From IMG/VR virus record IMGVR_UViG_3300023174_000122, positions 21,344 through 85,343 of that record: a stretch of DNA of 64,000 nt; one strand, 5' to 3'. Below, piece by piece: positions 49,290-64,000 of the stretch (position 1 is the first letter of the stretch; each line of letters starts with the position of its first letter). The position numbers and the translations under genes are program-made. Under the pieces are notes generated by a model. It made no database searches. It was not told the DNA's origin and saw nothing but the letters and a program-made list of their open reading frames with translations. The DNA is from a virus.

Positions 49290-49766
49290 TTATCTTTTTA
49301 AACTTAAAAAGCATGGTTGATTATTATTTAATAATTCTGGTAAGCACTCTGTCATTTCTTTTTCATCTTCAGGCCAATACTGTTTTATGTTTTTAAAAGT
49401 ATCTAAATACTGTTTTATATCGTCCATCCAATGACTAATTCCATCGTGCTCATAGTCCTTATCTCTACCACTACAAATTAATTTAACTGGAATATTTTCA
49501 TAATTTATATATGTTCTAATTATTTCAAATGGTCTATAAATTAAAAAAGTACCTATAGAATAAACAACAGGTATCTTGCCTTCGAGGGCTAATCCGCATG
49601 CAACCCCCATCATAGAAAATTCTGCTGCTTGGCAATTTAAAAATCTATCTGGATAATCAGATATTATCTTATCAAAACCTCCATAGCCAAGATCTCCAGT
49701 CAATGATAATATCTTATCATTCTGGCTCATATTTCTATGTAATTCTTTGAAAAATGTTCTACGCAT
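49290..49766 (-). CDS. Transketolase, pyrimidine-binding half
   Basis: This 158-residue protein matches the middle (pyrimidine-binding) domain of transketolases: LSLTGDLGYGGFDKI, then FLNCQAAEFSMMGVACGLALEGKIPVVYSIGTFLIYRPFEIIRTYI (E is the TPP-activating residue) and GRDKDYEHDGISHW. With the TPP-binding half at 49913-50548 it should form a two-subunit transketolase that rearranges sugar skeletons, for instance for unusual branched or higher sugars. A third C-terminal domain is absent. It overlaps the upstream methyltransferase fragment by 8 bases. Confidence 0.75.
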   Translation of the reverse strand: MRRTFFKELHRNMSQNDKILSLTGDLGYGGFDKIISDYPDRFLNCQAAEFSMMGVACGLALEGKIPVVYSIGTFLIYRPFEIIRTYINYENIPVKLICSGRDKDYEHDGISHWMDDIKQYLDTFKNIKQYWPEDEKEMTECLPELLNNNQPCFLSLKR

Positions 49767-49935
49767 CTTTTTTATCTACTTCAAAAGCAAATGCATTCGT
49801 ATGTATACAATTTGGAAAAACATCTGATAGTATATTTAAATTATCTCCATCGAAAACCCCAATTTCTAAATAGTTCAGAATGTCGTTTGATTTTAGTTTT
49901 TCTAAAAGATATCTATGAATGTGGTGTGCTAACAT
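49759..49935 (-). pseudogene. Truncated SAM-methyltransferase-like fragment
   Basis: This short frame of about 58 residues starts at ATG 49935 and contains YLEIGVFDGDNL, the glycine-rich SAM-binding motif I of class I methyltransferases, preceded by an N-terminal helix typical of surface-glycan methyltransferases. It then stops after FAFEVDKKDA, where the later motifs should be. It overlaps both transketolase halves (23 and 8 bases). It may be a decayed or imported fragment kept for translational coupling, or a small SAM-binding protein. The lack of later motifs makes an active methyltransferase unlikely. Confidence 0.5.
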
Positions 49936-50548
49936 ATGTATTGTGCTCCTCTTGCGATAAAAGATTATAATGACCAGATAAGCCTTTGACAAAAGAAAAC
50001 TTCTGATAAATATAATCCGTTAATCTTATTTCTATATTCTGATGTAAATTTTTTAATTTTTGAATAATTTCATATTTATCAAATTCCGCTAAAGCACTAT
50101 ATCCATTCACATTGGCATATATTTTCAAATTATTTATTTTATATTTATTGACTATATTAAAGGTCTCGTAAATACTGCCTTCAAACATTTCTCCATCGCT
50201 TATCAAGCAATAGACATTTCTAGTTTTATCTGCTAACGCCATACCGCATGCTGCAGGTAGCCCACAACCTAAACTTCCAGTTGAATAAAAAATTTTATTT
50301 TCTAAATCTCTATTTGGATGAACGCCATGTTTCTCATGAAGTGCTTCTGCGTTGATTCCGTAATATTTTTCTAGAACTACATACAGAGCTAATCCTGCGT
50401 GTCCATTACTTAATATAAACGGTTCATTTTCTTTTTTAACAGAATAAATTTCATCTATAATACCAACAGAACTTAAGTTGCTAGACAAATGAGATAGTTT
50501 GCGGTTATAACTTATTTCTAAAATTCTTTTTTCTAGTTTATTAATCAT
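49913..50548 (-). CDS. Transketolase, TPP-binding half
   Basis: This 211-residue protein has the N-terminal thiamin-diphosphate-binding domain of transketolases: LSNGHAGLALYVVLEKYYG, the GHxxPAL-like helix, STGSLGCGLPAACGMALA and the metal-TPP motif ISDGEMFEGSIYE...KINNLKIYANVNGY. The start at ATG 50548 overlaps the preceding glycosyltransferase by 8 bases and fits the domain start (KRILEISYNRKLSHLSS); a TTG at 50578 is less likely. It pairs with the half at 49290-49766. Separate transketolase halves are known in bacteria, but the methyltransferase fragment between them is odd. Confidence 0.75.
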   Translation of the reverse strand: MINKLEKRILEISYNRKLSHLSSNLSSVGIIDEIYSVKKENEPFILSNGHAGLALYVVLEKYYGINAEALHEKHGVHPNRDLENKIFYSTGSLGCGLPAACGMALADKTRNVYCLISDGEMFEGSIYETFNIVNKYKINNLKIYANVNGYSALAEFDKYEIIQKLKNLHQNIEIRLTDYIYQKFSFVKGLSGHYNLLSQEEHNTYVSTPHS

Positions 50549-51230
50549 ATATAATTGCTGCAGAATATATTTCTGCAAGATACATTCTTTGTTGAAGAGT
50601 AGTGCCTGGCCAATGAATTAAAAAGTCTCCTTGCGACCATTGGCCGTTATTGCCATAAAAATCTTTGCCTTGTCTGTAATGACTTAAACTATTAATGCTT
50701 CCATGAAAATTGGTTTCTGGATAAAGCCTGTAATCGTACGAGTTTATCATTTTTTGAGGAAGTATTTTTGTTATCTTTTTGATATGTTCGTTTTGAGCTA
50801 TAAGATCTATTATAGCTTGTTGCTCTGCCCATGCATCATTTGCATATTTAGGGTAAAGACTAATTATATTTGAAAAAAATGCTCTTGAGCTTATTGTATT
50901 TTTTATAATAAATGAATCTACGTTTATATTATTTGCGTCCGTCGATACAAAGAAATCGTGTTCAGCGTCTATTAGGTCTGTAATTTTTATACTAAAATTA
51001 GTTATTAGCGTGTCCACTCCGCACCAATACAATAAATCGCATTTATTGTTCTCTAGTAACTCTAAGCTCCTATATATTTTTTCAAAACCTAAATTTGAAA
51101 ATTTAAAATCTGATAGTCTTTCTTCAAAAAGATAATTATGTTTTTTGCAATATTCTATTTTATTTACAGAGGTTACGTCTCTGAGAGATTTGTAGTTGTC
51201 TTTTGACAATGTGAATATCATTGTTCTCAT
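50541..51230 (-). CDS. GT34-like (GMA12/MNN10-type) glycosyltransferase
   Basis: This 229-residue protein has FSNLGFEKIYRSLELLENN followed by the catalytic-site-like YWCGVDTLITN. FFVSTDANNINVDSFIIKNTISSRAFFSNI, AWAEQQAIIDLI and a closing GDFLIHWPGT follow. This order matches GT34-type alpha-galactosyl/mannosyl transferases. The donor and acceptor cannot be told. It overlaps the transketolase half by 8 bases and the upstream small gene by 4, so it belongs to the same operon. It probably adds a sugar to a phage- or host-surface glycan. Confidence 0.6.
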   Translation of the reverse strand: MRTMIFTLSKDNYKSLRDVTSVNKIEYCKKHNYLFEERLSDFKFSNLGFEKIYRSLELLENNKCDLLYWCGVDTLITNFSIKITDLIDAEHDFFVSTDANNINVDSFIIKNTISSRAFFSNIISLYPKYANDAWAEQQAIIDLIAQNEHIKKITKILPQKMINSYDYRLYPETNFHGSINSLSHYRQGKDFYGNNGQWSQGDFLIHWPGTTLQQRMYLAEIYSAAIIYD

Positions 51231-54374: not shown

Positions 54375-55130
54375 CTAACTAATGTTATGATTGTGCATTA
54401 TATTTAAAATATCGTCGATAGTTTTAAATGTTTTAATATTTTTATTTTGATGCCAATTCAAAACAGAAAGATTTTGTTCTTTCCATTCCCAATAATAAAT
54501 ATAAGTTGGAATACCAATACTTGTGGCTATATGCGCCATGCCACTAGTTATCCCTATAAAAATTTTAGATTCAGATAAAGTCTTAATTGAGTTCGTGAGT
54601 TCTCCTTCGTGTTCTCCTACTATAGTAGCTTTGTAATTTTTTAAACATAACATTTTTCTATATATATCATTTTTAAAGTCTGAAGAAATATTTCTATGGT
54701 TATCTATCCAATTTGGTTTTGCTACTTCGTATATGCCTTTATTTTGATTATAAAATTTTGATTCTATTTGGATGCTGATTTTATTTATGTTATTTAAATT
54801 TTTCTTTAATTTAGTAGGCACTGGTAGATTATTACAAAACAATGCGCTCTCTGGTATAGTAAAGGATCTAGTAAATTCATTATGTTGATTTTGAGGTTCA
54901 TCTACTATTTCAATTTCTGCTCCAAAAGAATCTAAAAGATTAAAACATTCTTTTATTTTTTCTTCGTAATTATGATTATAGTTTGTTTTAAAGTTTTCAA
55001 AACTATAAGGATATTTTGATATATAAACTTTACTTTTATTTTGTTTGCTCAAAAGAATTACTCCGCTTGCTATTAGCCAAATATCACCTAAATGAGCTCC
55101 ATCTGCAATTCCATAGATTTTTTTATTCAT
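54375..55130 (-). CDS. GT9-like protein, tandem copy 2
   Basis: This 251-residue protein begins MNKKIYGIADGAHLGDIWLIASGVILLS. The preceding gene begins MKKIYGLHPGAHFGDIWLSISSAILYS, so the two are clear tandem paralogues; the ATG at 55130 is chosen by that alignment (55157 is an alternative). Later blocks SESKIFIGITSGMAHIATSIGIPTYIYYW match the nucleotide-sugar-binding end of GT9-type transferases. It probably transfers a sugar, acceptor unknown. A weak promoter-like TATAAT lies 4 bases before the start. Confidence 0.55.
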   Translation of the reverse strand: MNKKIYGIADGAHLGDIWLIASGVILLSKQNKSKVYISKYPYSFENFKTNYNHNYEEKIKECFNLLDSFGAEIEIVDEPQNQHNEFTRSFTIPESALFCNNLPVPTKLKKNLNNINKISIQIESKFYNQNKGIYEVAKPNWIDNHRNISSDFKNDIYRKMLCLKNYKATIVGEHEGELTNSIKTLSESKIFIGITSGMAHIATSIGIPTYIYYWEWKEQNLSVLNWHQNKNIKTFKTIDDILNIMHNHNIS

Positions 55131-55131
55131 A

Positions 55132-55863
55132 TTAATTATATATGATACCGTGCTCATTGAAAATATTTAATATATCTTCAAATGTTTTAAATTTTTTAAT
55201 ATTTTTATTTTTATGAAATTGATCCAAATATATATCTTCATTTTGTTTAAAATCATATAAATAAACTGGTATTCCAACACTAGATCCAATATGAGCCATT
55301 CCACTATCAATACCTATAAATATATTTGATTCAGCTATTTTGTTAATAGAGCTTTCTATTCCAATATGCTCTCCAACAGAATTTATTTTTAGATTTTGAA
55401 AACTAATAAAATTAAGAAAAATTTTTTCTAATTCTAGATATGAAATATTTCTGTATTCATTTTGTGCGCTATTTTTTCTAGAGGTATAAATCCCTTTTTC
55501 TTTATCAAAAAATAATGAAGCTAGTTGTAAAGATATAGTATTCTTGTCTTTAGGTTTGTGTTTAATTTTTGTAAATACAATAGGATCTTCATTTAAAAAA
55601 GCTCCTCTGCTTATTGGAAAGTGAATAGTATTTTCATCATATTGATTTTGAAAATCATCAACTATTTCAATTTTTGCTTCTGTTGTGTCTAAAACATTTA
55701 AACATTCTATAATAATATCTTTTCGATCATAATTTTCGTAATCTGCGTATCTAGACAAATAGATTATTTCTTTATTTTTTTTACTATACAATATAGCAGA
55801 ACTTATAGATAACCATATATCTCCAAAATGCGCTCCTGGATGTAATCCATAAATTTTTTTCAT
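55132..55863 (-). CDS. GT9-like protein, tandem copy 1
   Basis: This 243-residue paralogue of the following gene has the same opening (KIYGLHPGAHFGDIWLSIS), the same central KIAESNIFIGIDSGMAHIGSSVGIPVYLYDF block and the same ending (KFKTFEDILNIFNEHG versus TFKTIDDILNIMHNHN). The conserved DSGMAHIGSS block resembles the GT9 donor-binding loop. The tandem copies may have diverged to add two different sugars. It starts 1 base after the HTTM gene stop. Confidence 0.55.
   Translation of the reverse strand: MKKIYGLHPGAHFGDIWLSISSAILYSKKNKEIIYLSRYADYENYDRKDIIIECLNVLDTTEAKIEIVDDFQNQYDENTIHFPISRGAFLNEDPIVFTKIKHKPKDKNTISLQLASLFFDKEKGIYTSRKNSAQNEYRNISYLELEKIFLNFISFQNLKINSVGEHIGIESSINKIAESNIFIGIDSGMAHIGSSVGIPVYLYDFKQNEDIYLDQFHKNKNIKKFKTFEDILNIFNEHGIIYN
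55135..55163 (-). promoter_or_regulatory. Weak promoter before GT9-like tandem copy 2
   Basis: TTTTCA (55158-55163), 17 bases, TATAAT (55135-55140), 4 bases before ATG 55130. The -10 is perfect and the -35 matches 4 of 6. It lies within the upstream paralogue's coding end, so it may be chance in AT-rich DNA. Confidence 0.3.
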
Positions 55864-55864
55864 A

Positions 55865-56722
55865 TTATTTTACAAAGTATTGATTACAAAAGCTTAGTAA
55901 TGCTAGGATAACTGTTGGTGCGAAGAACCATAACCTTAAAAAAATTAGCATTCCAAAATGTAAACCTAGTGCGCAAAGAATGGCGAGAGGTCTTGTCTCT
56001 TTTAAAAAGAAAAGAATTGGTGAAAAAAATTGAAAACACATCGTTCCATAATTTAAAGTTTTTGCAATAAATAAATTTAAAAACATGCTTTTGCATATTC
56101 TTCTTCCCCATGATTCAGATAAAGCAGCATTTCTTAAGGCTAATCCTTCTTGCCAGTATTTGTCTTTAAGTTTGTGTATGCTGGAAAGAAAATAACTACT
56201 TATAACTGTAAGCTGTATGATTCTTAAGCTCCAGCCATCTATGGTCTCGAGATTAGAAGAAAAGCCTAAAAAATAATCAATTGAATATTTAGAGCCACAA
56301 TCTATTAATAGTAATGAAAATAACATTACTCTAGCAAATACATCTGCATCACTAAATATTATTGGCATTATTCTAGCTTGTAAAGATGAGTAAGTAATAA
56401 AAAAAATTAATATTGATAAATTTGTTAGAAAACCAAAAATAGAAGTTAAACCAGAAACTACGAATAAAAATAAAATAATAATTTGGGCTAGCTCTGATCT
56501 GAGTATAAATCTAAAATTAAATAGCGAACTTTGCCTTATGTAGGCTCTGTCGTAAAAGACTGAACTGTATAAACCATTTGGTTTAGAAAAAAGAATGACA
56601 TACCTAAATATAAATAGAAACGAAGACAAAAAATATCCGCAATATAATATTCTTAATATTGCAGCAAAATAACTGGATATTTTATATTCAAAGAAAAAAT
56701 TATATATATCTAAAGCGCTCAT
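55865..56722 (-). CDS. HTTM-domain (vitamin-K carboxylase-like) membrane protein
   Basis: This 285-residue multi-pass membrane protein has about six to eight hydrophobic segments. The layout fits the HTTM (horizontally transferred transmembrane) family, which includes vitamin-K-dependent gamma-carboxylase relatives: AAILRILYCGYFL near the start, an SSIHKLKDKYWQEGLALRNAALSES loop, then ILCALGLHFGMLIFLRLWFF with the conserved FH-type helix. It sits in the host inner membrane. HTTM proteins in bacteria are thought to modify lipids, peptides or quinone-linked substrates, and function is unproven here. It overlaps the partner gene upstream by 23 bases. HTTM genes are very unusual on a phage. Confidence 0.7.
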   Translation of the reverse strand: MSALDIYNFFFEYKISSYFAAILRILYCGYFLSSFLFIFRYVILFSKPNGLYSSVFYDRAYIRQSSLFNFRFILRSELAQIIILFLFVVSGLTSIFGFLTNLSILIFFITYSSLQARIMPIIFSDADVFARVMLFSLLLIDCGSKYSIDYFLGFSSNLETIDGWSLRIIQLTVISSYFLSSIHKLKDKYWQEGLALRNAALSESWGRRICKSMFLNLFIAKTLNYGTMCFQFFSPILFFLKETRPLAILCALGLHFGMLIFLRLWFFAPTVILALLSFCNQYFVK

Positions 56723-57230
56723 CGAAGTTTTTATCTTCCAGCTTCCAAGAAAATATTAATTCCTCTTTTATTGGTTTTGATCTATTTTTTACTATTTCGT
56801 CTGTTTCAAAAGAGCTGTAAAGTGATGAAAAAATTTCAAAAGAAAGTAATTGATCGTTACGATTATAAAAATACGCTTCAATTTTTTCTTTAAAATAATC
56901 ATTCATAAATGCATTGAAATTATAAAAAGTATAATTAAAAGCCAAATGTTGTCTTACAAAATGTGGCCCTATATAAAAATTCCCAATTTTTTCATCTTTT
57001 CTTAAGTACCATACTTTTTTAGAATGCAAAGAAATTCCTACTAGTTTAATATCTCTGAATTCATTATTCATTCCTAAAAAAAGAGCAAAAGAAGAAAAAA
57101 ATCTGCTCATCTTTACAAAAGGGTCTCGTTTTTTTAAAAGTTCAATATCTGTTTGTATAGTGTTAATTAATATTTCTTGAACCAAAAAAAATAAATATAA
57201 TGAAATTATAATAATTTTAAAAAAAATCAT
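56700..57230 (-). CDS. HTTM-associated protein with N-terminal membrane anchor
   Basis: This 176-residue protein has one N-terminal hydrophobic segment (FFKIIIISLYLFFLVQEIL) and a soluble domain of unknown fold, rich in Phe, Tyr and Asn. Similar small partners are encoded beside bacterial HTTM genes. It overlaps the HTTM gene by 23 bases, arguing for a complex. The domain has no recognisable catalytic motif. It may be a substrate-binding or regulatory subunit (inference). Confidence 0.5.
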   Translation of the reverse strand: MIFFKIIIISLYLFFLVQEILINTIQTDIELLKKRDPFVKMSRFFSSFALFLGMNNEFRDIKLVGISLHSKKVWYLRKDEKIGNFYIGPHFVRQHLAFNYTFYNFNAFMNDYFKEKIEAYFYNRNDQLLSFEIFSSLYSSFETDEIVKNRSKPIKEELIFSWKLEDKNFDERFRYI

Positions 57231-57236
57231 ATCTAA

Positions 57237-57944
57237 TTATTTATTACGTTTAATTAAATCAACTTCAGTAGATGTAGTAATAAGTTTATTTTTAGTTTTA
57301 AAGAAAAATGTTTGATATAGTCTTCCTTCTTCAAAGATGTTTGAAAATCCATCAGCTCCACTGTGAGGTTTTTGAGATCTACAAAGAATCAATCTATTAT
57401 AAACTGCACCTAAAGAGTCTATTAATTTCCAATTTTCTTTAGAAGTCATCCAATCGTAATTATTTTTCTTATTAATATTTTCCCATAAAAATAGTCCAGA
57501 ATCAATTGGCGCTTGTGGATTTAAATAAATTAAACCTACCCAATCATTATGCTCTAGCGAATTCCACCAATCGGTTACATGGTTATGAACAGCATCTCCT
57601 AATTTCTGACCAACTAATGGTTTTATATGAAATGTGCAATTCCATTTTGGGCTTTTTTTTGGTTCTTCATGATTTCTTTTGCCATCACTATCATATGGGT
57701 GTTTAGGCCTAGTCCTTTGCCAATTTTCTCTATCTAATTCCTCTCCAGTTAAGAATTCTAAATTTTTAATTAGACTTTCTGAAGATTTGAATGGGCAGTC
57801 ACGCCATTCTTTAAAATTATTTGCATACCAATCTTCTGTGCCGTAAGGTAAATATCTATCAAATGTTAGTTCATGTAAAGCGTACTGTCTTACTTTATCT
57901 GGATCTTTATAAAAATTTTCTGCAATAATGATATCTTTTTTCAA
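57237..57944 (-). CDS. DUF6445-like, possible 2-oxoglutarate/Fe(II) oxygenase
   Basis: This 235-residue protein begins IIIAENFYKDPDKVRQYAL, the typical opening of DUF6445 proteins, which share the double-stranded beta-helix layout of Fe(II)/2-oxoglutarate oxygenases. Later come WVGLIYLNPQAPIDSGLFLW, NRLILCRSQKPHSGADGF and RLYQTFFF, matching the conserved end of that family (N-R-L...H.g..GF...RL.QtFFF). Whether the iron-binding triad is intact cannot be settled by eye. It overlaps the next oxygenase by 4 bases, making a two-oxygenase pair upstream of the HTTM genes. Confidence 0.6.
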   Translation of the reverse strand: MKKDIIIAENFYKDPDKVRQYALHELTFDRYLPYGTEDWYANNFKEWRDCPFKSSESLIKNLEFLTGEELDRENWQRTRPKHPYDSDGKRNHEEPKKSPKWNCTFHIKPLVGQKLGDAVHNHVTDWWNSLEHNDWVGLIYLNPQAPIDSGLFLWENINKKNNYDWMTSKENWKLIDSLGAVYNRLILCRSQKPHSGADGFSNIFEEGRLYQTFFFKTKNKLITTSTEVDLIKRNK

Positions 57945-58831
57945 GTTAATAAATCTCCTAAAGTTTGATTAAAGTATTCAAAATAAGTTGGACTAGACTC
58001 AAGGTCATAAAATTCTTCTTTTTTCCACCGTTCAAAAGTAGACCCTGTTTCTTTTTTCTTTTTCTTTATAGCCTCTAGGTTTCTTTTAATAATATAGTTG
58101 GGGTCGCTATGAAACCAGTGAACTATTGCACTTCTATCAAATTTTGCACCAATATATCCATGATATGAATACGGACAAACTTCAAAAGCAAATAGTCTGT
58201 TATTTACTGGTTTTACTTCTTTTACCAATGAATCTGACTCGTAATTAGTATATACTCCTGTGCCTCCACCATCTTTTTCTTCTAAAGGAGACTTATTGTT
58301 TAAGTAGTAAATAATCGCTATTTGTCTAGCAATTTTAGATGTATTTGGTTGTAAATTTTTAGAGTCATCTTGGTATTCGCAATCTACACCTGTTAATTTT
58401 ATTTTTTTATTTTTGTCGTTGATTGCAGAACAAATACCAAGATCTGCATGAGACCAACCATCTCTAGAAGGTTTTTCTTTTGATCCTTTATGTAAATGCA
58501 CTGACATAGCTAAGTGTTGATTTAATTCAACGCCAAAAAGTTGGGCTATAAAATCTTTATATACTTCTTCTGCAAAAAAATTATATCCGTCTGTGAGATC
58601 TTGTTCTTTTAACCCGTATATGTAAGCGTCATAGAGCAATTCTCCAGGACCTATTTTTCCAGCAGGTTTTTCTGTTTTTAAAATAAGAGATGCAAATTTT
58701 TTACATAATTTATTATAGATCTCTTCTGTAAAAAAATTATCTATTATAGCGTGATTATAAGGCTCGCTAAATTTTTCTATTTTAATATTTTCTGATATAT
58801 AAGGGTGACAGGTTATGGGTACAGAGTCCAT
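57941..58831 (-). CDS. 2-oxoglutarate/Fe(II)-dependent oxygenase, prolyl-hydroxylase type
   Basis: This 296-residue protein has SHADLG with the iron-binding H128-x-D130, GGTGVYTN (a beta-helix turn), and distal H224 with R233 in HGYIGAKFDRSAIVHWF, a complete H-x-D...H...R set of 2OG oxygenases. Length and layout suit prolyl/lysyl-type hydroxylases and related sugar or lipid hydroxylases. The substrate is unknown; candidates are virion or glycan substrates of this cluster. It opens an operon with a strong promoter (TTGAAA-17-TATAAT, 5 bases before the ATG). Confidence 0.75.
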   Translation of the reverse strand: MDSVPITCHPYISENIKIEKFSEPYNHAIIDNFFTEEIYNKLCKKFASLILKTEKPAGKIGPGELLYDAYIYGLKEQDLTDGYNFFAEEVYKDFIAQLFGVELNQHLAMSVHLHKGSKEKPSRDGWSHADLGICSAINDKNKKIKLTGVDCEYQDDSKNLQPNTSKIARQIAIIYYLNNKSPLEEKDGGGTGVYTNYESDSLVKEVKPVNNRLFAFEVCPYSYHGYIGAKFDRSAIVHWFHSDPNYIIKRNLEAIKKKKKETGSTFERWKKEEFYDLESSPTYFEYFNQTLGDLLT

Positions 58832-58836
58832 AAAAG

Positions 58837-58865
58837 ATTATATTGGACAAGGCTTATTTTTTCAA
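58837..58865 (-). promoter_or_regulatory. Strong sigma70-like promoter of oxygenase/HTTM operon
   Basis: TTGAAA (58860-58865), a 17-base spacer, perfect TATAAT (58837-58842), 5 bases before the ATG at 58831. The remainder of the 124-base gap to 58955 is AT-rich with no other clear feature apart from a 23-codon plus-strand frame of doubtful reality. Confidence 0.65.
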
Positions 58866-58955
58866 TATAATAATAATATGACCATTTCTACTAGTTTAAT
58901 TTGTTTTGCTGTATTGGTTTATATATATTATTTAGTAGAAAGAGTTAAGTAAAAA

Positions 58956-60239
58956 TTAATAAATAGCGTATTTTTGGTTTAAATAAGTTTCAACTTGCTG
59001 GCGTTCTGTTAAGGTTAATGTTCTATTATAAATTACTATTTCACATACATATGAATCAGATGCCTCTTCGTTCCCACCATTCCAAATTCCTCCACCAACT
59101 GATATTCCATTTAAAATAACTGTTGAATTAGAAGCACCGCTAGATTGTGAAACTCCATTTTGAGAAAAATCAAAAGTTGTATTTGGATCAGAAAATGCAG
59201 TTGTAATTAAAAAATCTGTTGAAGTTTGCTCTCCTTCAGCAAGCCACCCATTATCTCCTCCACCATAAAATCTATTACTATAATTACCCCATGTTCCAAT
59301 TAAAACATTACCAAAATAAGATGAAAATATTCTTCCAGTATTTGTTGATTTTTGTTTTGTAACTGAAAAGAAAGTAAATCCAGTAAGACCAAAACTAGTG
59401 TTACTTAATCCTGTGTTACTACCAACTATAAACTCTATTGCTGGTTTTCCATTTAAAAAAGAAGAAACAAAAGTTGGCGCATTTTGATTATCTGGAGTTA
59501 ATACAATACTATTTCCACTTTGATCTGCCCACTCAGTTACATAGTCTGAATTTGCTGTTGAAGTTGTAATGCTTCCGCTGATAGAACCAACTGGATAGAA
59601 TGCAACTGACGATGTTGTTGGAGATCCAGTTCCATTTACCAAAGTCCAAGCTCCAGAATAATTTGCGTTTGTATTTGTGGCTAGTAACTCGGTTGAATTG
59701 TCTAGATTAAAAAGGTTCTCTCCATTTATAAAATAAGGAAGTTTTACAAAACCCTCCGAATCTTCGTATGCGCCGAAAGTGTATGTTCCATTTGCAGGCG
59801 AATAGTCATCAGTAAATCCAGTAATAACCACTTGATTAAGACGCTGACCAAGTATACTCCAGCTTTCTCCATTGGATGAAGAAAATCCAATCGTATTTGA
59901 AATAACATATAAGAAAAATTGTTCTTCGTTAGAATCCCAAATTATTGTGTATCCATTTGTGGAAGATAGAGTATAATTATTAACTCTATATCCCTCATAG
60001 TTAAATGTCGGAACAGTTGTTGCCGTATATGTTCCATTAACACTTGGATTGCTTGTTCCAGATATTATAATCTCTGAGATATAATTAAATGAGAATTTGC
60101 TTACCCCAGCGTCAGCTTTCAACCAAAGAGATAATCCACCTAAACTTGATGGAAGAAAAGAAGCTCCTTGTCTTGGAATTTTGAAGGTTGTATTTTTTTT
60201 AAAATTTAAGTTTGCTTGTTTTTTAACTGTAAAAGACAT
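58956..60239 (-). CDS. LamG-like (concanavalin-type) adhesin
   Basis: This 427-residue protein starts GLSLWLKADAGVSKF, then EWADQSGNSIVLTP, LNGKPAIEFIVGSNTGL and FFSVTKQKSTNTGRIF, and ends SYVCEIVIYNRTLTLTERQQVETYLNQKY. This order is the LamG/pentraxin-like jelly roll found in many phage fibres and bacterial adhesins; the closing EIVIYNRTLTxxERQQVETYL is especially typical. An inserted Gly/Ser/Thr-rich block occupies residues about 55 to 200. It is probably a receptor-binding or decoration protein. It lies apart from the tail block, on the opposite strand. Confidence 0.7.
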   Translation of the reverse strand: MSFTVKKQANLNFKKNTTFKIPRQGASFLPSSLGGLSLWLKADAGVSKFSFNYISEIIISGTSNPSVNGTYTATTVPTFNYEGYRVNNYTLSSTNGYTIIWDSNEEQFFLYVISNTIGFSSSNGESWSILGQRLNQVVITGFTDDYSPANGTYTFGAYEDSEGFVKLPYFINGENLFNLDNSTELLATNTNANYSGAWTLVNGTGSPTTSSVAFYPVGSISGSITTSTANSDYVTEWADQSGNSIVLTPDNQNAPTFVSSFLNGKPAIEFIVGSNTGLSNTSFGLTGFTFFSVTKQKSTNTGRIFSSYFGNVLIGTWGNYSNRFYGGGDNGWLAEGEQTSTDFLITTAFSDPNTTFDFSQNGVSQSSGASNSTVILNGISVGGGIWNGGNEEASDSYVCEIVIYNRTLTLTERQQVETYLNQKYAIY

Positions 60240-61656: not shown

Positions 61657-62316
61657 CTATCTGGCTTTTGTGTCAGATTCTAATATTACACTACCATCTG
61701 TTCTTAAAAGATTTCTTGTGCTTCCATGTGGATTTTTAATTGTTTTATCTAAAGCACCACTAGAATGATTAGTAAAAGCTTTGGTAAAGTCAACTAAGAA
61801 ATAATCATTTGTATCTAATGCTAATATTTTTTTAGAATTTTCTATACCATATTCACCACCTGCTCCTCCAAAACAAGATCCTCTTTTCCAAATAGTAGGA
61901 TGTTGTTCGTTGTGTGCAGGACAACTAAATACTGTATTTGCTTTCTTTTTTTTACCTGTATATGTAACAGGAATATAGTTAGTGAGATAATATTCTATGT
62001 TAGATTTATCAACTACATTTTGAGTTGTGCCACCAAATCTACTATCGCTAATAAATGTATTAATTGTTTGACCATCTGGACCTGGAGGCAACCAACCATC
62101 ATTTTCTGCTGCAAATAATAAAATACTTGTACCCACTTGTTTCATATTCGAAGCACAAGCAGCTTGAGACGATTTACGTTTTACTGCACCAAAAGCAGAG
62201 AATGATAAGCTCATTACGAATGCCATTATGACTATTACAACTGTCATTTCAACTAATGTGAAACCAAAAAATTTTAATAATTTTGGACGTTTTAAAAGCG
62301 TGTTGGGAGTTTGCAT
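61657..62316 (-). CDS. Prepilin-type pseudopilin with H-X9-DG signature
   Basis: The N-terminus of this 219-residue protein is a type IV prepilin leader (KFFGFTLVEMTVVIVIMAFVMSL; cleavage before F of FTLVE with a Glu at position 5). NMKQVGTSILLFAAENDGWLPP follows. The end carries H-GSTRNLLRT-DG, nine residues between H and DG, the processing-associated H-X9-DG motif common in Planctomycetota, Verrucomicrobiota and Lentisphaerota. It probably forms part of a type II secretion or pilus-like pseudopilus. AGGAG lies 6 bases before ATG 62316, a Shine-Dalgarno spacing unlike most genes here. It overlaps the upstream PEP-CTERM gene by 25 bases. Confidence 0.85.
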   Translation of the reverse strand: MQTPNTLLKRPKLLKFFGFTLVEMTVVIVIMAFVMSLSFSAFGAVKRKSSQAACASNMKQVGTSILLFAAENDGWLPPGPDGQTINTFISDSRFGGTTQNVVDKSNIEYYLTNYIPVTYTGKKKKANTVFSCPAHNEQHPTIWKRGSCFGGAGGEYGIENSKKILALDTNDYFLVDFTKAFTNHSSGALDKTIKNPHGSTRNLLRTDGSVILESDTKAR

Positions 62317-64000
62317 TTGTTTCTCCTCACGATTCTAAGGCCTATCAAAACACTAGCACCACCTAATAGAAGTGAAAATGTAGAAGGTTCTGGAATAACA
62401 TTTACTACTCCATCTGTGGTAAAACTATTAGCATCCCATTTCAAATTTGAATTAGCAGTATCTAAATTAGGTAATGCTGCTAGTAATGTATTAACATCAA
62501 ATGCAGATGCTTCGATTGACGCAAAATTAAATAAATCGTAACTATCATTCATTTGAAATGAGTAATTATCTAATGTTTCAAATGTCCATGATGTATTAGC
62601 CCCTAATGTTAACAAACTACTTACATTGATAGCATCGTAGGTGGTACCTCTGGTAGTTGGTGCGCCTAATTGGAATTGGAATGTTCCGTTACTTCCATTT
62701 AACTCATAAGCAGTTAGCAGACCAGGACTATTGCCAGGTGCCACAGTACCACCATTTAGAGTTAAGCCCTGCACACTACCAGAGCCACCTAATGTACCTC
62801 CTGTATTTACTAAAACATCTCCTGCACTTCCATTTACTGATAGTAAACTTCCATTGATAGTTGTACTACCAATATTACCACCAGAATTTACTGTTGCTGT
62901 ACCAGAATTGACGATAACAGTTCCAGCTGTTCCTTCTACTAATAATGTGCCACCACCTACAGTACTAGTACCCAAAAGACTACCGCCTGATTTTACATTG
63001 AGTGTGCCACCAGTATTAACTGTTGATATACCAGTTCTTCCATATACATCTAATGTGCTACCATTTATAGTTGTGATACCAGAATTGCCACCAGAATTTA
63101 CTGTTGCTGTACCAGAGTTGACAACAGTCTGTCCAACTGATCCTGATATCAACAAAGTGCCACCATTAACAGTAGCTTTCGAAGATGTACCACCTGTCTT
63201 TACATCAAAAGTACTGCCTGTTGCAATAGTTGTTTCACCTACTGTACCACTATTGAGCAAGCTTCCTCCTGTGAGAGTAGAGTTACCAAGAAACCCTCCA
63301 CTATAAACTGTAGCAGTTCCTGCAGACATGGAGAATGTACTGCCAGTTCCTCTCAAGTCCAAAGTACCACCACCTTGTGTTATTGTACCAGTTGTACCAT
63401 CTACTGATACTGTAGTGGTGACGCCGATAGAGAAATTACCAATAGTCCCAGTGCTATCAACTATTAAGTTTCCTGCGTTAGCAGTTATATTACCAGCTGT
63501 ACCTTTAACTCTTAAAGTTCCACCTGATACTATCGCAGCACTAGAAGCAATAGAGCCAGCAGTATCAACTACAAATATACCATCTTGTATGGTAGTGTCT
63601 CCATTATAAGAATTGACTGCTTGAAAAGTTGCTGTTCCAGTTCCTGATTTGGTTAAACCTCTGAGCGCAGACCCTGTATTGAGTAAGGAGCCCTTAAAGA
63701 GAAAATCTCCCACACCACCTACAACGCTTGTATCTGCAACTGTTCCTCCAATATCTAATGTTCCATCAAATTGCACAGTTAAATTGGTACTGTTATTGAA
63801 CAATCTTCTGCCACCACTTGAACCTGTAGATACAGTGAGCGTATTGGCACTATTAGTAAACTGCAGTAATGTTTTGTATCCTCCATGATTGGTAAAGTTC
63901 ATATTATTACCTTGATATTGATTCATAACATAAGTAGTAACAGCAGCAGAATTAGATCCTGCTAGATCCAATGTTCCCATAGTAGAAAGACTGGTTGACC
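62292..64000 (-). CDS. PEP-CTERM autotransporter-like beta-helix protein (5' end outside window)
   Basis: The frame is open past the right edge (reading ...STSLST before an internal ATG at 63980), so the start is missing. About 562 visible residues consist of Gly/Thr/Val/Asn-rich repeats with the signature TVNSGG, GGTLxVxGTAG and TVAPGNSPG of autotransporter-associated beta-strand repeats, forming a beta-helix. The C-terminus is a PEP-CTERM sorting signal: PEPSTFSLLLGGASVLIGL then RIVRRNK. Exosortase of the host would anchor and cleave it. Such proteins are surface proteins of Verrucomicrobiota/Planctomycetota-type bacteria. It shares an operon with the H-X9-DG pseudopilin. Confidence 0.85.
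   Translation of the reverse strand, partial: STSLSTMGTLDLAGSNSAAVTTYVMNQYQGNNMNFTNHGGYKTLLQFTNSANTLTVSTGSSGGRRLFNNSTNLTVQFDGTLDIGGTVADTSVVGGVGDFLFKGSLLNTGSALRGLTKSGTGTATFQAVNSYNGDTTIQDGIFVVDTAGSIASSAAIVSGGTLRVKGTAGNITANAGNLIVDSTGTIGNFSIGVTTTVSVDGTTGTITQGGGTLDLRGTGSTFSMSAGTATVYSGGFLGNSTLTGGSLLNSGTVGETTIATGSTFDVKTGGTSSKATVNGGTLLISGSVGQTVVNSGTATVNSGGNSGITTINGSTLDVYGRTGISTVNTGGTLNVKSGGSLLGTSTVGGGTLLVEGTAGTVIVNSGTATVNSGGNIGSTTINGSLLSVNGSAGDVLVNTGGTLGGSGSVQGLTLNGGTVAPGNSPGLLTAYELNGSNGTFQFQLGAPTTRGTTYDAINVSSLLTLGANTSWTFETLDNYSFQMNDSYDLFNFASIEASAFDVNTLLAALPNLDTANSNLKWDANSFTTDGVVNVIPEPSTFSLLLGGASVLIGLRIVRRNKCKLPTRF
62323..62327 (-). promoter_or_regulatory. Canonical Shine-Dalgarno before pseudopilin
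   Basis: AGGAG on the minus strand lies 6 bases before ATG 62316. Most minus-strand phage genes here lack such a site, so it supports a host-like origin of this end of the window. Confidence 0.6.
62851..62912 (-). repeat. Near-identical repeat in autotransporter gene, copy 1
   Basis: This segment aligns almost base for base with 63061-63122, 210 bases (70 codons) away, including a shared CCAGAATTTACTGTTGCTGT on the plus strand. The 70-residue period is the beta-helix repeat unit. It is a recent tandem duplication or is kept uniform by recombination. Confidence 0.8.
63061..63122 (-). repeat. Near-identical repeat in autotransporter gene, copy 2
   Basis: Second copy of the 62-base near-identical repeat, 210 bases from copy 1, in the same reading frame. 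Confidence 0.8.

Follow-up and report, generated by a model that had tools for sequence, protein, structure and literature searches.

The phage genome examined here carries two overlapping genes, for a multi-pass membrane protein of the HTTM family and for a small membrane-anchored partner, and the preferred reading, held with a probability of about 0.4, is that they encode a two-subunit membrane enzyme of the HTTM/SdpB type, which would act on an exported polypeptide during infection. The pair is a phage version of a type known from bacteria and eukaryotes and, with a compact HTTM protein, a putative catalytic lysine and one small partner, it may provide a minimal system for studying the function of the HTTM core beyond blood clotting. 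The window, i.e. the whole stretch of 64,000 nucleotides that was analysed, corresponds to bases 21344-85343 of the 85,343-base IMG/VR virus record IMGVR_UViG_3300023174_000122. The relatives to which it is compared are two IMG/VR phage contigs that also bear an HTTM gene, L002 (136 kb) and L005 (93 kb), and G010 (113 kb), the capsid protein of which is 82% identical to that of the window. The features discussed are collected in table 1.

Table 1. Positions of the genes and of the promoter element in the window.
Feature	Position	Strand	Basis
Second GT9-like protein	54375..55157	-	immediately follows DUF6445 in G010
GT9-like protein, next gene after HTTM	55132..55863	-	sub-threshold Glyco_transf_9, E=0.19
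285-aa multi-pass membrane protein of the HTTM family (SdpB/VKGC core)	55865..56722	-	PF05090 and VKGC profile match
Anchored partner (176 aa) with a single N-terminal TM helix and a predicted alpha/beta domain	56700..57230	-	conserved pair
DUF6445-like/phrog_1644 protein, DSBH-like C-terminus	57237..57944	-	phrog_1644, E=3.4e-19
2OG-Fe(II) oxygenase	57941..58831	-	PF13640; H128-x-D130, H224, R233
Promoter TTGAAA-17-TATAAT, 5 nt upstream of the ATG of the 2OG gene	58837..58865	-	string and G010 counterpart
Micro-ORF of 24 aa with a single TM segment (MTISTSLICFAVLVYIYYLVERVK), divergent to the 2OG gene	58878..58952	+	same gap in G010 (L106 3230-3304, minus)
LamG-like structural protein of the virion, belonging to the oxygenase block (upstream)	58956..60239	-	phrog_10356, E=7.4e-8

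The HTTM protein and its anchored partner

The four reading frames that the original prediction had placed in tandem, for the HTTM protein, its partner, a DUF6445-type protein and an oxygenase, were all found at their positions on the minus strand. The HTTM assignment holds on profile searching, with the window's copy matching PF05090 at E=2e-7 (31.3 bits against a curated cut-off of 27.7) and the copies of L002 and L005 reaching 49.6-49.7 bits; each of the three homologues contains four to six strong hydrophobic segments, consistent with a multi-pass protein. A profile made of the three phage copies matches the chains of human vitamin K-dependent carboxylase (VKGC) at E=5.5e-6, and a wider one, including also six Bacteroidota relatives, at E=2.5e-13. 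In both profile alignments K184, part of the phage motif KLKDKYWQEG, aligns with the VKGC segment VKKL-DADWVEG, the second lysine of which is Lys218 (numbered on the full-length chain), the residue that starts the VKGC reaction (PMC9146348). The equivalent lysine is present in all the phage and bacterial members examined, and the positions that are invariant in nine aligned phage and bacterial HTTM sequences are D127, Y177, K184, W190, G193, H255, G257, F267 and F278. On these alignments the phage protein is related to the VKGC core and conserves the equivalent of Lys218. His160, which is also reported to be essential in VKGC (PMC9146348), is not conserved, the phages having Gly or Ala at that position, and there is no large C-terminal lumenal region, so that a role as a Glu carboxylase proper is unlikely. 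The AlphaFold model of the HTTM protein, obtained from three sequences, is unusable (pLDDT 41.5), and the pocket is not visible in it.

The partner, described as anchored, has a single N-terminal TM helix. Its counterparts in L002 and L005 (185-187 aa) also have one TM segment and directly precede the HTTM gene, and in all three phages the two genes overlap by 23 nt (positions 56700-56722 of the window, 10001-10023 of L002 and 10401-10423 of L005). Between L002 and L005 the HTTM genes differ with dN 0.24 and dS 0.81, i.e. with a dN/dS of about 0.3, and the partner genes with a dN/dS of about 0.4; both proteins are therefore constrained and, as far as substitution rates tell, the HTTM protein is under purifying selection. 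Profile searches gave no family match for the partner, its AlphaFold model (pLDDT 64.6) found no fold match in PDB or BFVD with Foldseek, and no sequence link was detected with SdpA, DUF5819 or bacterial partner genes (hhalign E=0.6). The closest Bacteroidota HTTM relatives usually have, directly upstream, a short gene whose product is hydrophobic at its N-terminus, in one case a DUF5819 gene (78.6 bits), and it is by position and topology only that the phage partner may be tied to SdpA and to the DUF5819-type partners. Just upstream of the HTTM region, L002 (7858-8388) and L005 (5907-6440) encode another TM-anchored protein, which, by its conserved NSCFVDS and GHA motifs, looks like a cysteine protease of the papain/transglutaminase type.

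The adjoining oxygenase block and sugar genes

The oxygenase announced as complete in its H-x-D...H...R motif is confirmed by a match to 2OG-FeII_Oxy_3 (E=2.7e-7, 31.9 bits, above the cut-off of 27), and its copy in G010, 54% identical, keeps H128-A-D130, H224 and R233. The claim of a second oxygenase stands only in part: the match of the adjacent protein to the DUF6445 family falls below the cut-off (E=0.0068, 16.8 bits against 24), so that it is only DUF6445-like; it belongs to phrog_1644 and carries a variant HxxD...H...R motif with H122-V-T-D125 in place of HxD. It is 67% identical to its copy in G010, where a shorter LamG counterpart precedes the 2OG gene. An ordinary guess, as yet unproven, is that the block modifies the adjacent LamG-like structural protein or surface sugars.

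The two oxygenase genes had been gathered with the HTTM pair into one operon and, together with the adjacent GT9-like transferases, into one pathway for the modification of a virion or surface substrate, a view for which tandem orientation and tight spacing speak in the window genome alone. The genes do not co-occur across the relatives. In L002 and L005 the HTTM pair is preceded by a TM gene of 88-91 aa, from which an HSP20-like gene on the opposite strand separates it, and is followed by a gene starting with MP(I/M)PQPKKNE (DUF5856-type in L005) and by a glycosyltransferase-like gene, and no LamG, 2OG or DUF6445 gene is found at the site. G010, the entire record of which lacks HTTM, shows the order PEP-CTERM, 79 aa, 108 aa, 88 aa TM, LamG, 2OG, DUF6445, GT9-like, methyltransferase, epimerase, DUF5856 and glycosyltransferase-like, which is that of the window except that the HTTM pair and one of the GT9-like genes are missing. 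Since the pair occurs without oxygenases at its site in two phages and the oxygenases occur, in conserved order, without the pair in a third, a single pathway is very improbable. On this comparison of gene orders, the HTTM pair and the LamG-2OG-DUF6445 block are independent cassettes meeting in the window genome, the latter recombining as a cassette of its own; cargo cassettes lying side by side in phages are easily taken for one pathway.

The promoter said to drive the operon exists as a string, and is to be assigned to the oxygenase block rather than to the HTTM unit, because a counterpart (TTAGAA-17-TATAAT-5-ATG) lies at the same position and with the same 17-nt spacing before the oxygenase of G010, where no HTTM gene follows. 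Promoter-like sites in the AT-rich region are no more frequent than expected by chance (31 found, 40.8 expected). The conserved placement indicates that the element is probably genuine; it would be of the near-leaderless kind and belong to the 2OG gene, the start codon of which would lie near the transcript start. Of the 62 ATG ORFs of 80 or more aa in the window, three have a TATAAT 4-6 nt ahead of their start codon (positions 58837, 20728 and 25337), and another lies upstream of position 3353 in L106, an arrangement that suggests near-leaderless phage promoters. The micro-ORF in the gap between the 2OG and LamG-like genes had been missed by length cut-offs.

GT9-like transferases had also been predicted to adjoin the unit. 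Neighbouring genes are indeed there, and the similarity is below threshold for one (table 1) and absent for the other, which shows no Pfam family above cut-off and no GT9 match; none of L002, L005 and G010 has, at that place, a counterpart of the gene directly after HTTM. The sugar-nucleotide/glycosyltransferase cluster at about 45.7-55.9 kb includes split transketolase-like genes (49290-50578, minus strand), and in L002 and L005 it is partly replaced by aminotransferase, NeuB-like and dehydroquinate synthase-like genes, as judged from translations read by eye.

Phage residence and distribution

Structural and replication genes, among them those for tail, LamG-like and DNA polymerase III-type proteins, are found in the window and in the remainder of the record. 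The major capsid protein has at least 397 related stretches among viral contigs and no match among 50,697 isolated phage records, which points to a large uncultivated lineage of tailed phages with no counterpart record in that collection. That the segment might instead be host chromosome beside a prophage, or an assembly chimera, is suggested by the cellular look of the PEP-CTERM and prepilin-like genes at its right end. The same neighbours, the PEP-CTERM protein included, nevertheless stand in the same order in the independent viral contigs L005 and G010, and PEP-CTERM genes recur in 13 of 50 lineage records, which makes this alternative extremely improbable; a host flank was rejected on the basis of synteny in three other contigs. 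As the HTTM pair, its 23-nt overlap and the flanking genes are kept in L002 and L005, the segment is, by its gene order, phage and not host. The GDP-mannose dehydratase, tried for host assignment, was uninformative, giving matches from mixed phyla.

The PEP-CTERM proteins (window 62292-63980, minus strand; L005 6447-8381; L106 1-1671) combine the C-terminal sorting motif with a repeat-rich, passenger-like body. Exosortase (PF09721) was not found in 16 records, and the phages may borrow that of the host for the sorting of their PEP-CTERM protein, which would also suggest an exosortase-bearing host. The prepilin-like gene (61657-62316, minus strand), with an N-terminal methylation motif (PF07963), lies within the phage accessory block and was not seen at the corresponding place in L005 or G010.

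HTTM is, as anticipated, an unusual phage cargo. A tblastn search of the 50,697 INPHARED phage records gave no match, and the gene was found in 2 of 50 lineage records (L002 and L005) besides the window, a count that is a lower bound because the lineage records are fragments. Degenerate scans for further viral homologues returned just L002 and L005 again, a scan of bacterial genomes with the phage HTTM alignment confirmed no homologue, and the one match to a defence system, for L002, was at chance level (E=0.024). No phage HTTM protein is described in the open-access literature searched, and the searchable literature treats HTTM proteins mainly through human GGCX and SdpB.

Possible function and relation to known systems

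In the proposed mechanism, the partner and the HTTM protein would assemble in the inner membrane of the host as the two subunits of an enzyme. The HTTM subunit would supply the catalytic lysine, which, as in VKGC, would probably serve to activate a membrane quinone in its reduced form, and the partner would present, on the outer side of the membrane, an exported polypeptide. The pair might thus mature or modify an exported phage or host polypeptide, by analogy with SdpA and SdpB, which act on SdpC. The chemistry of HTTM proteins other than VKGC is not established in the literature examined, and the quinone link is drawn by analogy with VKGC; the more specific proposal of a phage quinone-dependent, protein-modifying enzyme of the VKGC superfamily, with two subunits and acting chemically on a polypeptide that the infected cell exports, is unlikely when taken as a whole. 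No candidate substrate gene common to all three HTTM phages was identified.

The same genes could serve without catalysis, as a complex for superinfection exclusion or envelope remodelling that changes a receptor at the surface or keeps DNA from entering. Small TM proteins are encoded nearby (the 88-aa TM gene and the 24-aa micro-ORF), the HTTM pair has an accessory distribution, and the partner evolves fast, with 31-33% identity and the dN/dS given above, as exclusion proteins often do. That the catalytic lysine of VKGC and residues near it are conserved in nine of nine aligned members suggests chemistry instead, so that a non-enzymatic role, while conceivable, is on the unlikely side.

A further alternative is the maturation of an SDP-like toxin, in which a phage-encoded hydrophobic peptide would kill host or competitor cells. 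SdpA and SdpB are required for SdpC processing in B. subtilis, and the HTTM proteins of L002 and L005 match the SdpB family TIGR04033 (E=3.5e-11, 43.2 bits and E=8.5e-11, 42 bits, respectively), both below the curated cut-off of 178.4 bits, with no match for the window's copy. Neither SdpC (TIGR04032) nor SdpI (PF13630) was found in the records of the window, L002, L005 and G010, which are possibly incomplete, when the B. subtilis control was positive for both, and an SDP toxin system proper is therefore not supported. SdpC-type C-termini being highly variable (PMC6818787), a diverged precursor of this type is possible in the phages; toxin maturation as such is improbable. A two-subunit enzyme acting on an exported polypeptide is retained as the preferred reading of the HTTM pair.

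As to the oxygenase block, cyanophages (e.g. S-WAM2, S-SSM7) have DUF6445-like genes of the same phrog_1644 type, in some records adjoining glycosyltransferase genes; they are 23-33% identical to the window's, which differs in directly following the 2OG and LamG-like structural genes. With the Bacteroidota pairs of HTTM and DUF5819-type genes (e.g. L119, L121, L122, L126, L128) the phage pair shares gene order, an HTTM protein of about 300 aa, the invariant D, K, W, G and H and, in most cases, an N-terminal hydrophobic segment in the upstream gene product; these pairs are, however, cellular, their HTTM proteins are just 19-25% identical to those of the phages, and homology of the partners is undetectable. 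In the sdpABC operon of B. subtilis, the likeness lies in a small anchored-protein gene followed by that of an HTTM protein of about 290 aa, whereas the phage pair has no SdpC or SdpI and a partner that is not recognisable as SdpA. Finally, human VKGC (GGCX; PDB 9bvk, 9l20, 9wf2) aligns with the phage protein along the HTTM core over about 240 residues, with Lys218 kept; the phage protein differs in being without His160 and without the C-terminal region of about 450 residues, and in having its small partner encoded by a separate gene.
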